NCBI GenBank assembly: GCA_021844725.1
Contig: JAKBSX010000190.1
Coordinates: 1 to 6,229 of the forward strand
DNA length: 6,229 nt
DNA from: Actinomycetes bacterium
GTDB lineage: Bacteria > Actinomycetota > Acidimicrobiia > Acidimicrobiales > Acidimicrobiaceae
Direction: 5' to 3'
The notes under the pieces are model-generated. The model worked only from the letters and a program-made list of their open reading frames with translations. It searched no databases and was not told the DNA's origin. Shown piece after piece: positions 2,094 through 6,229 of this stretch (position 1 is its first letter; every line of letters begins with the position of its first letter). Made by a program: the position numbers and the translations under genes.

Positions 2094-2120
2094 GCTCGTG
2101 CATACATATAGATATGGAAC
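2094..2120 (+). promoter_or_regulatory. Shared regulatory element, copy 2 (overlaps the paralogue start)
   Basis: A perfect 27-base copy of 1118-1144, core at 2098-2114, dyad CATAT-AG-ATATG at 2105-2116. It again ends on the start codon, here ATG 2114. It fills most of the 31-bp gap after the primase gene. An in-frame TGA at 2090 rules out any longer version of the downstream gene, so this start cannot be an artefact of choosing the wrong ATG. The only purine-rich stretch upstream (GAGG, 2091-2094) is about 19 bases away, too far for ribosome binding. Confidence 0.68.
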
Positions 2121-2749
2121 TAATTACAAACCAATCAGGCAAAGTTAAGTCCGCATCGGATATTCTGCGCCAGTACCGTGTCTATAACCCGAATCTAGCT
2201 ATTGCGCCACTTCAACCTGGAACCGACCAACACTGGTTGGAAGTACCGATTGAACAACGCTACCGCCGCCCCGCTGAATGGCAAACCCAACAGTGGCCGG
2301 ATGGTGCCAATGTAGCAATCGCAACAGGAGTAAGAAACCGTCTCATCGTTATAAACCTGAGCACCAATAGTGCAACCACTGAGTTCATTGACCAAATTGC
2401 AGACCACGGTGGGGATTTGAGTCCTTATGCAGTTCGCACTCCAATCGGAGTTCAGTGGTATTACCGCACTCGATATGATCGGGAGTCGATTCCTACCGCA
2501 GCCTCCACCATAGATACACCTGGGTTTAAAGTTATTGCCGAAGGCCAATATGTTGTCGCTGCCGGTTCTCTGATAAATGGTTGCGAGTGCAAAGCACTGC
2601 TTGACCAAACCCTCGATGTCGCTCACCTGCCAGTGCTGCCAAAGTACTTCGCCGATGCTCTCGGCTTTGCCGAAAAGTCAACGTTCGAGTCTTCGATGCC
2701 ATCGTCAGAAGTGGTAGTTGGCAAATTTGGGATCCGGCCAAAGTTTTAG
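2114..2749 (+). CDS. Catalytically degenerate Prim-Pol paralogue
   Basis: A 211-residue protein that aligns by eye with the primase domain of the preceding gene but has lost its active site. GANVAIATGVRNRLIVINLS (64-83) matches the neighbour's NVNVGIRTG...LMVVDID, with catalytic D94 and D96 replaced by N81 and S83. VRTPIGVQWYY (107-117) matches STPTGGLHLYY, with H138 replaced by W115. GFKVIAEGQYVVAAGS (137-152) matches GIDIRGEGGYVVGPPS, with D161 replaced by K139. The scaffold around each motif is kept, so the fold is probably intact while catalysis is not. It lacks the neighbour's helical C-terminal region. The frame is uninterrupted and has its own element copy, so it is not a decaying pseudogene. 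It may be a non-catalytic primase subunit, a DNA-binding or regulatory protein, or an inhibitor of the active enzyme; nothing in the sequence decides. Confidence 0.75.
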   Translation: MELITNQSGKVKSASDILRQYRVYNPNLAIAPLQPGTDQHWLEVPIEQRYRRPAEWQTQQWPDGANVAIATGVRNRLIVINLSTNSATTEFIDQIADHGGDLSPYAVRTPIGVQWYYRTRYDRESIPTAASTIDTPGFKVIAEGQYVVAAGSLINGCECKALLDQTLDVAHLPVLPKYFADALGFAEKSTFESSMPSSEVVVGKFGIRPKF

Positions 2750-2828: not shown

Positions 2829-5800
2829 ATGGAAACGAACCTAATGGCTAAAAGAGGGAAATCAAAAGTAAATTGGGAGCAGCTCGATCTCTTTGCTGAA
2901 CTCGATGATCAACCGACCGAAGGAGTCGAAAATGGAAAATCCATATCTACCAGTAGCCCGACAGTTTCTGCGGGATCATCCGCAACTATTCAAGGAATCG
3001 ACTCCCGAAGTCAAAGAAGAGATGGCACAGATGATAGCGGATCAGGTACTGGTACAAGTGAGAGCACTGACCCCAGCATTCGCCGAGTCACAGATAACCC
3101 CACAGATGACACAGGAGCAGATCAAGGGCGTGACCAACATGGCGAAGATGAGAGCCGAGGAAATGGCCTATCACGAGGTGATGTACGCGATGCTCGAACC
3201 CTACTAGAGGCTCAACGCTTTCAGCTTCCCTCAACTCACACCCTGGTTCCAAGTGGAGCCAAAGCCAGAGCTGAGGCCAACATTGAAGCCATACGGGTTC
3301 TAAATAGCATCAAGAGCGCAAGCGATGCAGCAAGTCCGGCCTACGCCACAGCCTCAGAGCAGGAAGTTCTAGCTCGGTATTCAGGTTGGGGTGCATGTCA
3401 GGAAATCTTTGACGAGCAAAGCAGTAATTTCACCGATCTTCGTAACGAGCTAAAAAGTCTGCTTTCAAACGAAGAATACGTTGCAGCTCGTCATTCGACC
3501 CTAAATGCTCATTACACCGACCCTTCGATTGCAGATGCCATGCTCACTGCTCTTGAGAGCCTCGGACTCCCCCCTGGTGCAGCAGTCCTCGAACCTGGTT
3601 GTGGAACTGGGAACTTCATCGGCCTTCGGGATGGATACGGCTTCGTTGGGGTGGAACTCGACCCGACCTCTGCTTCTATTGCTGAAATGCTTTATCCTGA
3701 TGCAAACATTCTTGCCCGAGATTTTGCAGATAAAAAAGGCGGCGGCTTTGATGCAGCTATTGGTAATGTGCCGTTTGGAGACTACAAAGTTGCCGATCCC
3801 GAATTCAACTCCGCTGGACACAACATCCACAACTATTTCATTATCAAGTCACTCCGTCTGACTAAACCTGGCGGTCTGGCAGCTTTTGTCACATCGTCCT
3901 ACACCCTCAATTCCCGCAACCCTGCCGCCCGAATAGAAATGGCACGCTACGGGGAATTCTTAGGCGCTGTACGTCTTCCGAATCAAGCACACAGCCGAGT
4001 TGCCGGCACGACAGTTCTCACCGATATTATTTTGTTCCGGCGCAGCGCTGAGGTAGCCAGCGTCAATGAAGCGGCAAGCCAGGAGTGGATACAGACCCAA
4101 CCTATTGAGGACGATGTACGCACTAACAGCTACTTTTTGAACCACCCAGAAATGGTTCTCGGCCAGGCGGTGATTACTAAAGGCCGCTTCGGGCCTACGT
4201 TGGAAGTGGAATCGGATCCAGATACCTCGCTTTCAGCTCTACTTGGCGAACGTCTTGGCCAGATCACAACCCAAGCTCTCGCCCAGGGACGTGGATATTC
4301 CTCCGACCTTGGGGCTTTAGAAGAAGAAGCCGATGTCATCAACCACAAAAGAGTCGGATCCATATACCAAGATGAGAACGGTGAATTCGTTCTCACTCAC
4401 TCTCATGGCCGAATTGAGCCTTATCCGGTCAAAGGTGCAGCAGCAGTTTCAGAACTCCGTCAGCTCCTAAAGATTCGTGACACCTATGATAAGTTACTGA
4501 TTGAGGAATCCAAGCCCCATGGCGACCCAGAGCCGGTGCGAATGGTGCTGAACGAGGTCTATGACACCTACGTGGCCAAATACGGCCCTATAAACCGATT
4601 CACCCTCTCGAGTCGCAAGCAGCTCGATGATGACGGTGTAGAGCGCATGGTCAAGGTCTATCCAAAGCTGGGCGGCTTCCGCAAAGACAAGATGTTTCGT
4701 GCAGTTGCAGCACTTGAGAACTTTGATGAGGAAACCGGAATCGCAACCAAAGCTGCAATATTCTCCCACTCGGTTCTGAGTAACGACCCTGGCATTTTAG
4801 GTGTCGATGATCCCGCCGAAGCCATTGCTGTATCGCTTTCACAAAACGGACACGTTGACCTTGTAGCAGTATCTCATCTACTTGGAATGACTGAAGCTGA
4901 GACCATTGAACAAATTAAGGATCTGGTCTTTACCGATCCCGTATCTGGTACACTCATCGACAGCGCCAGCTATCTTTCAGGTAACGTCCGTACCAAACTC
5001 GCTCAGGCTTGCCAAGCACTAGAAGCTGGAGATGAATCCCAAGCCCGCAACGTAGCCGCCCTGGAAGCGGTAGTTCCGGCTGATCTCGCCATTAGCGAAA
5101 TTCGCATGCGCCTCGGCTCTACATGGATTGCAGCGGAAGTCGTAGAAGAAGCCTTCAACACAATTACCAGCAATTTCTCGTGGGATAAGACCACAGTCTC
5201 CTATGAAGAGTCCATAGGCCACTGGCAAGTCAAATCCCCTGGCCGAAGCCACCGCTCTACTGCAATCACACATGAGTACGGTGTACCTGGACATATGGAT
5301 GCAACAAAGATCCTCGAAAATCTTCTCAACAACCGTGAAATTCAGATTCGAGTCATGGTTGACGAAAAAATGGTCATAGAACCCGAACTAACTGCTCAAG
5401 CTCGTGATAAAGCTGACTTGTTGCAGCAAAAGGTGATTGAAACCATCATTGCCACACCGCATTTGGCCGAACGGGTAGCACGCACCTATAACGACCGATT
5501 CAATGCAATCGTTCCCCGTTCCTACAATGGAGACCATCTCCAACTCTCAAGCCTTTCACGCTCGTTCAAACCTCATGACCACCAGAAAGAAATGGTTGCC
5601 AGAATCCTCCACTCCCCAACAGCACTTGCAGCCCACCCAGTCGGTGCCGGAAAGACGGCTGAGATGGTTATTGCGGGCCAGATACTGCGTAGGTCAGGCA
5701 AGATCAAAAAACCCCTCTATGCCGTACCCAACCACATGTTGGAGCAGTTCGCCCGTGAGTACCTACAGCTCTATCCCAATGCAAAGATCCTTGTTGCTGA

Positions 5801-6229
5801 TAAAGATGAGGTAACCCCAGCCTCAAGAGCCGAATTTGTCTCCCGCTGTGCAACTGAATTCTGGGATGCAGTAATTATGAGCCACAGTTCATTTGGCCGG
5901 ATTCCTTTGTCTGTTGAAACCGAACGTGAGTTCCTAATGGAACGCCACATCGAACTCGAAACCGCCCTGTCAAGGTTTGCAGGATCAAGTGAAGCAACGG
6001 TAAAAGCTATTGAAAAGAAGGTGACTCGAGAACTAGCCAAGCTAAAGTCCCAGATGGACTCCATTTCTCGTGACGACAGCTACACCTTTGAGCAGATGGG
6101 AGTGGACTATATCTTTGTCGATGAAGCCCACCTGTACAAGAACCTGGCCACCATCTCATCCTCCTCAGAGCTGTCGATAGTGGGTTCCCAGCGGGCGACT
6201 GATCTCGAATCTGAATTTCACGGTTGTTG
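2829..6229 (+). CDS. Giant DNA methyltransferase-helicase (DarB/SNF2-like), 3' end outside the window
   Basis: Open to the right edge: at least 1133 residues, where this family usually exceeds 2000. From M1: QLDLF at 18-22; a Ser/Gly/Thr/Asp-rich linker (about 35-127); RYSGWGA at 183-189, matching the family's YSGWGG; an N6-adenine methylase domain with LEPGCGTGNF (254-263, AdoMet binding), GVELD (274-278) and catalytic NVPF (313-316, the family form of NPPF); a central region with YLSGNVR (715-721) and RLGSTW (761-766); then a superfamily 2 helicase with VGAGKT (938-943), PNHMLEQF (967-974), HSSFGRIP (1019-1026) and DEAH (1098-1101). Helicase motifs IV-VI would lie outside. The start is ATG 2829 or ATG 2844; neither has a strong ribosome site (GGAAAC precedes 2844). 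No other ATG, GTG or TTG occurs in frame before the methylase domain. Related proteins on plasmids, ICEs and phages include P1 DarB, an antirestriction factor; the role here is inferred. Confidence 0.9.
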   Translation, partial: METNLMAKRGKSKVNWEQLDLFAELDDQPTEGVENGKSISTSSPTVSAGSSATIQGIDSRSQRRDGTDDSGSGTGTSESTDPSIRRVTDNPTDDTGADQGRDQHGEDESRGNGLSRGDVRDARTLLEAQRFQLPSTHTLVPSGAKARAEANIEAIRVLNSIKSASDAASPAYATASEQEVLARYSGWGACQEIFDEQSSNFTDLRNELKSLLSNEEYVAARHSTLNAHYTDPSIADAMLTALESLGLPPGAAVLEPGCGTGNFIGLRDGYGFVGVELDPTSASIAEMLYPDANILARDFADKKGGGFDAAIGNVPFGDYKVADPEFNSAGHNIHNYFIIKSLRLTKPGGLAAFVTSSYTLNSRNPAARIEMARYGEFLGAVRLPNQAHSRVAGTTVLTDIILFRRSAEVASVNEAASQEWIQTQPIEDDVRTNSYFLNHPEMVLGQAVITKGRFGPTLEVESDPDTSLSALLGERLGQITTQALAQGRGYSSDLGALEEEADVINHKRVGSIYQDENGEFVLTHSHGRIEPYPVKGAAAVSELRQLLKIRDTYDKLLIEESKPHGDPEPVRMVLNEVYDTYVAKYGPINRFTLSSRKQLDDDGVERMVKVYPKLGGFRKDKMFRAVAALENFDEETGIATKAAIFSHSVLSNDPGILGVDDPAEAIAVSLSQNGHVDLVAVSHLLGMTEAETIEQIKDLVFTDPVSGTLIDSASYLSGNVRTKLAQACQALEAGDESQARNVAALEAVVPADLAISEIRMRLGSTWIAAEVVEEAFNTITSNFSWDKTTVSYEESIGHWQVKSPGRSHRSTAITHEYGVPGHMDATKILENLLNNREIQIRVMVDEKMVIEPELTAQARDKADLLQQKVIETIIATPHLAERVARTYNDRFNAIVPRSYNGDHLQLSSLSRSFKPHDHQKEMVARILHSPTALAAHPVGAGKTAEMVIAGQILRRSGKIKKPLYAVPNHMLEQFAREYLQLYPNAKILVADKDEVTPASRAEFVSRCATEFWDAVIMSHSSFGRIPLSVETEREFLMERHIELETALSRFAGSSEATVKAIEKKVTRELAKLKSQMDSISRDDSYTFEQMGVDYIFVDEAHLYKNLATISSSSELSIVGSQRATDLESEFHGC
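2919..2925 (+). promoter_or_regulatory. Ribosome binding site for the nested gene
   Basis: GAAGGAG ends 6 bases before ATG 2932. It lies inside the giant gene but has ideal composition and spacing, and is the main evidence that the out-of-frame nested gene is translated. Confidence 0.6.
2932..3207 (+). CDS. Small overprinted gene nested in the methylase-helicase gene (unknown function)
   Basis: A 91-residue protein, MENPYLPVARQFLRD to the end YAMLEPY, in the +1 frame relative to the giant gene. It looks like a real folded protein: helix-forming, charged and amphipathic (KEEMAQMIADQVLVQV at 28-43; MAKMRAEEMAYHEVMYAML at 70-88). The giant gene's own frame over the same bases gives a disordered Ser/Gly/Thr/Asp-rich stretch. 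GAAGGAG lies 6 bases before the ATG. The frame is open further upstream (ATG 2893), but that start has no ribosome site. Weak resemblance, from memory, to the C-terminus of TnpV-type transposon proteins (MNNIR.RAEEIV..EL.Y) is only suggestive. The giant frame has no start between 2846 and the methylase domain, so the overlap cannot be removed by shortening it. Confidence 0.6.
   Translation: MENPYLPVARQFLRDHPQLFKESTPEVKEEMAQMIADQVLVQVRALTPAFAESQITPQMTQEQIKGVTNMAKMRAEEMAYHEVMYAMLEPY

Follow-up and report, generated by a model that had tools for sequence, protein, structure and literature searches.

A constrained Prim-Pol paralogue that has lost its catalytic residues, encoded beside an active-type primase as its putative non-catalytic partner

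The 6,229-nucleotide stretch of actinobacterial DNA analyzed here, which we refer to as the window, encodes two Prim-Pol proteins in tandem on the plus strand. The first (1138-2082, 314 aa) is of the active type, with 4/4 catalytic residues present. The second (2114-2749, 211 aa) is read from an ATG start through an intact open reading frame and has lost motif I; for brevity, we call it the dead protein and its gene the dead gene. We see about an even chance that this protein is a putative non-catalytic accessory subunit or partner of the adjacent, element-encoded active primase.

The spacer between the two genes is 31 bases long (2083-2113), and its final 19 bases are occupied by a promoter-like box, CTCGTGCATACATATAGATA (2095-2114, +), the last base of which is the A of the dead gene's start codon; the dead gene does carry its own copy of the regulatory element, as the initial annotation had stated. 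The longest open reading frame in the frame of the active primase begins at 940, and we prefer the start at 1138 because the box and the relatives of the protein favor it. The active protein ends in a helical bundle (residues ~223-298), and the dead protein is without a C-terminal helical domain.

On the other side of the active primase, a minus-strand gene (60-1010) encodes 316 aa with a weak match to phrog_34041, and its relatives adjoin the active primase on the same side at loci L001, L031 and L078. The 316-aa protein contains the stretch GGADGDFLVGGSLFEIKTT and may resemble a restriction-type nuclease core. Downstream of the dead gene lies the 5' part of a long DarB-like methyltransferase-helicase gene (2829-6227, +; phrog_10089), which extends past the end of the window. 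The last 26 bases of the window (6204-6229) are the exact reverse complement of 5327-5352 in this same gene, a repeat that points to an assembly artefact at the contig end. The same gene holds, in another frame, a nested open reading frame of 91 aa (2932-3207, +) with a counterpart at 5570-5836 of L078. Window and L078 agree at 46 of 88 residues in the nested frame and at only 30 of 88 in the outer one; against L001, dN/dS was 0.014/0.072 for the nested and 0.035/0 for the outer frame, from 7 differences in 273 bases. The nested frame looks like a true overlapping gene, placed in a linker region of the long protein.

Domain, fold and catalytic positions

The initial annotation had proposed a dead Prim-Pol paralogue in tandem with an active one, and the domain searches and structure prediction confirm that 2114-2749 encodes a Prim-Pol domain with the AEP fold. 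Pfam Prim-Pol (PF09250) matches residues 54-173 of the dead protein at E 1.2e-10 and 42.5 bits, the gathering cut-off being 22.8, and matches the neighbor at E 2.9e-36; no domain besides Prim-Pol was recognized in the dead protein by Pfam. A Pfam Prim-Pol match alone is hence not proof of a working primase, as the dead protein stands well above the cut-off. The two proteins of the window align by BLASTP with 27% identity over 113 columns (E 9e-5), and a profile-profile comparison of the dead and active families gave 98% probability over residues 25-188. The predicted fold is an AEP fold with the pRN1 primase as its best structural match; the alignment behind the model (A4) included active relatives and the fold is thus partly informed by them. 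The profile comparison is a separate but related line of evidence.

Four catalytic residues of the active protein, D94, D96, H138 and D161, show no variation among 37 aligned active relatives. The initial annotation had them all replaced, by N81, S83, W115 and K139. Both profile alignments return N81, S83 and K139. W115 is found in the ungapped BLASTP alignment, and both profile alignments, after inserting one gap, put Q114 opposite H138 instead; we prefer Q114 because two members of the dead family, P0129 and P0130, carry histidine at exactly that position.

How far these replacements extend can be read from the dead-family alignment, A6, which has 13 rows, including P0131 without its N-terminal part and P0006 short at the C terminus. 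Both motif I aspartates are lost in 12/12 rows covering the motif, the first being N in six and S in six, and the second S in seven, R in three, T in one and P in one. Loss of the other two residues is less complete: position 114 is Q in 11/13 rows and H in the other two (P0129, P0130), and position 139 is still Asp in 1/13 (P0128). Loss of motif I is thus the sole family-wide change, motifs II and III having decayed unevenly.

A broader comparison used 131 rows aligned to the active profile, 121 from outside the dead family and 10 from within it (P0131 fell below the threshold). All 121 outside rows keep D94, D96 and H138, and 120 of them have an acidic residue at 161; each of the 10 dead rows lacks three or all of the four residues, counting gaps as losses. 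The marks of a catalytically competent AEP, namely motif I with two acidic residues, the sxH of motif II and the hD/E of motif III, are absent from the dead protein. Motifs I and III of AEPs bind the catalytic metals and sxH serves nucleotide binding (available text of PMC4538821). Because motifs I and III hold those metals, the loss of motif I should abolish synthesis, and from this loss we infer that the dead protein should be catalytically inactive.

Conservation of the gene pair and possible roles of the dead protein

The dead family is small: six proteins were found in the first search and 11 with a wider alignment, in a database of ~5.8 billion sequences. At 4/4 loci with readable upstream sequence (the window, L001, L002 and L078), the dead gene directly follows an active primase or, at one of them, the remnant of one; the initial annotation had asked whether the two are ever neighbors, and at every readable locus they are. 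L001 holds an intact pair in the same order with its boxes in place. In L002, a 94-aa open reading frame ending like the C-terminal part of the active protein comes first, then the box, and then a stretch coding for 58 residues of the dead protein. L078, from genome G668, encodes a dead protein 39% identical to that of the window (P0127 is identical to it), and runs from the active primase through a 401-base spacer to the dead gene and then to the methyltransferase-helicase gene, as in the window.

Three more pairs (P0002/P0010, P0128/P0018 and P0130/P0019) agree in contig count and in longest contig (33,715, 134,456 and 7,700, respectively), and the members of each presumably share one contig. 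No such equal-contig partner was found for P0001, P0003-P0006, P0129 or P0131 among the best 120 of 229 active matches. Across the six intact pairs, three read directly and three assembled by this matching, the identity matrices of the dead and active proteins correlate with r 0.98, a value attained by 1/720 orderings, namely the true one; when L001 is left out, r is 0.98 and is attained by 2/120 orderings. Between branches, identity is 0.37-0.42 for dead proteins, lower than the 0.49-0.55 of the active ones. The parallel divergence shows joint inheritance of the two genes, which close linkage without interaction could give as well. In the tree, the dead rows form one clade with support 100/100 (8 dead of 46 rows; P0006, P0128-P0131 and the G673 protein were left out), which shows a single origin of the family.

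Among 42 genomes of G001's family, dead genes occur in three, one of them a remnant, and all three genomes also carry the active type or its remnant. Active-type primases occur in six of the 42 (E 1e-20) and are without a dead gene in G364 and G673, which have close relatives of the active protein, and in G667, which has a weaker match; no dead gene was found near the primase in the 19.9 kb (G364) and 4.8 kb (G673) of sequence inspected. The G673 primase is interrupted and its contig is short. The G364 protein groups in the tree with P0021 and P0022, the latter labelled Ferrimicrobium acidiphilum at its source, and the G673 protein looks by its sequence like a member of this branch. At ~9700-17600 of the G364 contig (L072, G364:C11), the Ferrimicrobium-like active primase adjoins cas1, a long CRISPR-like array (27 copies spaced at 64 bases) and a Cas9 gene; RecT is also encoded nearby. 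A second active copy in G001 (L031) lies on a contig that ends before the following gene can be read.

Searches outside this family were run with the window protein or its near relatives, which distant members of the dead family could escape. A tblastn search of 72,556 plasmid and 50,697 phage records with the window protein found no relative of the dead gene, and neither did searches of viral contigs with the single protein, alignment A1 or the exact box pattern. In a class-wide survey with A1, at least 3 of 395 genomes matched, G086 and G332 weakly; we rejected these two as carriers of dead genes, their open reading frames scoring ~300 bits with the active profile. An order-wide survey with A6 (E 1e-5) gave matches in at least 4 of 397 genomes: G001, G002 (the remnant), G332 (the same primase as in the class survey) and G186 (E 4e-8, a 794-aa frame). 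Clear dead-gene matches numbered at least 2 of 397, in G001 and the G002 remnant. Tandem open reading frames at L061, L063 and L064 were also considered as dead copies and set aside, the second frame matching only the C-terminal part of the profile.

Based on these data, we propose that, early on, a Prim-Pol domain in one group of actinobacterial mobile elements may have lost the motif that binds metal, and that the resulting pseudo-primase would then have been retained as a non-catalytic partner of the adjoining active primase. It would bind the active primase or its template, and may help to position primer synthesis, or to restrict it, when the element replicates. Because the dead gene has its own promoter-like box and its product is without the helical bundle, the dosage of the dead protein could be controlled independently of the catalytic protein's. 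We extend this proposal tentatively, and at a little short of even, to a heteromeric element primase in which one catalytic AEP subunit would work with a dead AEP subunit of the same fold devoted to template or primer handling.

The same co-occurrence data would also fit a dead protein that is a negative regulator of replication, competing with the active primase for the template or entering inactive mixed complexes and so keeping copy number low. A shared fold without catalytic residues would suit such a role, as would separate dosage, possibly set by the gene's own box. Competition would need contacts with DNA or protein, however, and two conserved residues of the active protein are not retained in the dead rows: K50 is a gap in 10/10, and R163 is replaced in seven and unaligned in three. 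We regard negative regulation as unlikely.

We consider it rather improbable that the dead protein has a function independent of the primase, using the Prim-Pol fold as a module for binding nucleic acid or protein (in conjugation, defence or counter-defence, for example) and staying a neighbor through block inheritance. Active-type enzymes without a dead gene do exist, and the dead family conserves residues unlike those of the active enzymes: the rows covering the N-terminal region share LRxYRxxNP, and a YxR stretch follows what was once motif II. Against independence, the gene order persists down to ~39% identity between dead proteins, and it is unchanged in L078 despite the 401-base spacer.

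The shared box and selection on the dead gene

The 20-base box, CTCGTGCATAYRTATAGATA, has four matches in the window with 0-2 mismatches when up to 3 are allowed, and none in 200 shuffles. Besides the copy before the dead gene, one precedes the active primase (1119-1138, +), where the final base is likewise the A of the start codon; a divergent copy with 2 mismatches precedes the minus-strand gene (1032-1051, -); and a CATATG variant precedes the methyltransferase-helicase gene (2786-2805, +). L001 has four boxes and L002 has one. Both primase genes of L078 have a related box, TGCATATATAT or TGCATATCTAT, 15-16 bases ahead of the start codon. Copies in places form divergent pairs, and a second form of the box is GTGCATACATATTAAGTA.

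As an alternative, the initial annotation had suggested an autoregulator that reuses the primase fold; such a dead protein would bind the GTGCATA box. In its favor, the box lies directly before both primase genes in the window, and related boxes precede both in L078. This suggestion has found no direct support, and we now consider it highly doubtful. The box is not special to primases: genome G001 has 29 matches with up to 3 mismatches and none for the reversed pattern. Box cores number 41 in 140 kb compared with 0.45 in shuffles, a biased count in that most of the contigs were chosen for carrying the box, and we rely on the genome-wide one. Moreover, Pfam gives the dead protein no domain but Prim-Pol. 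Since the box is common to many genes, the dead primase is not singled out as its regulator. Of ten proteins picked from box-bearing contigs of G001, several resemble a TrwC relaxase, a type II/IV secretion ATPase, a ParA-like ATPase or AAA ATPases; in four, Pfam recognized nothing. These contigs presumably belong to one element, which we take to be conjugative and to share a promoter or operator among its genes; the box may serve as the promoter for a factor that the element encodes, or as an operator.

Selection on the dead gene was estimated from one sequence pair, window against L001 (NG86). dN/dS was 0.022/0.231, or ~0.10, for the dead gene; the active gene gave 0.0125/0.129, and the minus-strand gene 0.025/0.131. 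On this one pair, the dead gene is constrained as strongly as its active neighbor and is not decaying, which agrees with the initial annotation's view of an intact gene whose product probably functions without catalysis. L078 carries, upstream of the intact pair on the same contig, a second dead copy (bases 95-475) with its own box; this copy is broken by stops and frame changes and lies too near the contig end for its upstream side to be read. The broken copy and the truncated one of L002 are what a relic in the course of being lost would leave, but the constraint on the gene, together with frames that are open in the window, L001, L078 and ten further database proteins (P0131 and P0006 each incomplete), largely refutes that reading.

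Comparison with known systems

Most descriptions of mobile-element Prim-Pols are of a single catalytic protein aided by fused domains. Among titles and abstract openings of the open-access literature, we found no published pair of a dead and an active Prim-Pol; the founding AEP survey of 2005, which may mention inactive members, lies outside that scope. Likewise, the available portions of PMC5862659, PMC6563490, PMC5797428, PMC10910872, PMC4158269, PMC3973330 and PMC4104785 describe no dead Prim-Pol beside an active one.

The initial annotation had drawn a parallel with the PriS-PriL arrangement. The likeness to PriS-PriL/PriX is that a catalytic and a non-catalytic component would cooperate. 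Neither PriL nor PriX is known to be a dead copy of PriS, and PriL is helical with four Fe-S cysteines. The dead protein instead matches the catalytic Prim-Pol domain, no row of its family has more than three cysteines, and it is the active protein that bears its own helical bundle. We therefore rejected the parallel as homology, the dead partner being a catalytic-type Prim-Pol domain and kin to the catalytic subunit. The p51 subunit of reverse transcriptase offers a comparable logic, that of a dead subunit with the same fold.

The Prim-Pol domain of pRN1 ORF904 (PDB 1rni, 3m1m and 9aam) has one active catalytic domain and a helix bundle in the same protein, whereas both the catalytic residues and the bundle are missing from the dead protein. 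The active protein's C-terminal bundle occupies the position of the helix-bundle domain in pRN1; the DNA-binding face of that pRN1 domain has been likened to PriL (available text of PMC8076596).

Replaced catalytic residues in a conserved replication enzyme with a kept gene neighborhood are also described for the archaeal inactivated family B polymerase PolB2, thought to act in repair or in the regulation of replication (available text of PMC4104785). PolB2 differs in belonging to an unrelated enzyme family and in being linked to an inactivated RadA and a small protein (same text). In the CCPol-MP system of SCCmec, the primase of a mobile element likewise pairs a catalytic protein with a non-catalytic one encoded in the same operon, and MP confers priming; CCPol, however, is an A-family polymerase, and the available text does not describe MP as a copy of it (PMC7581432). 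CasMuC, a transposase rather than a primase, is another case from a mobile element: it is an inactivated paralogue whose gene accompanies that of the active enzyme, a MuA transposase, and is predicted to be an adaptor (available text of PMC10910872). In the present case, a dead copy retained beside a live one would show a non-catalytic primase subunit arising by duplication, and the pair forms a small two-protein system that is open to direct test.
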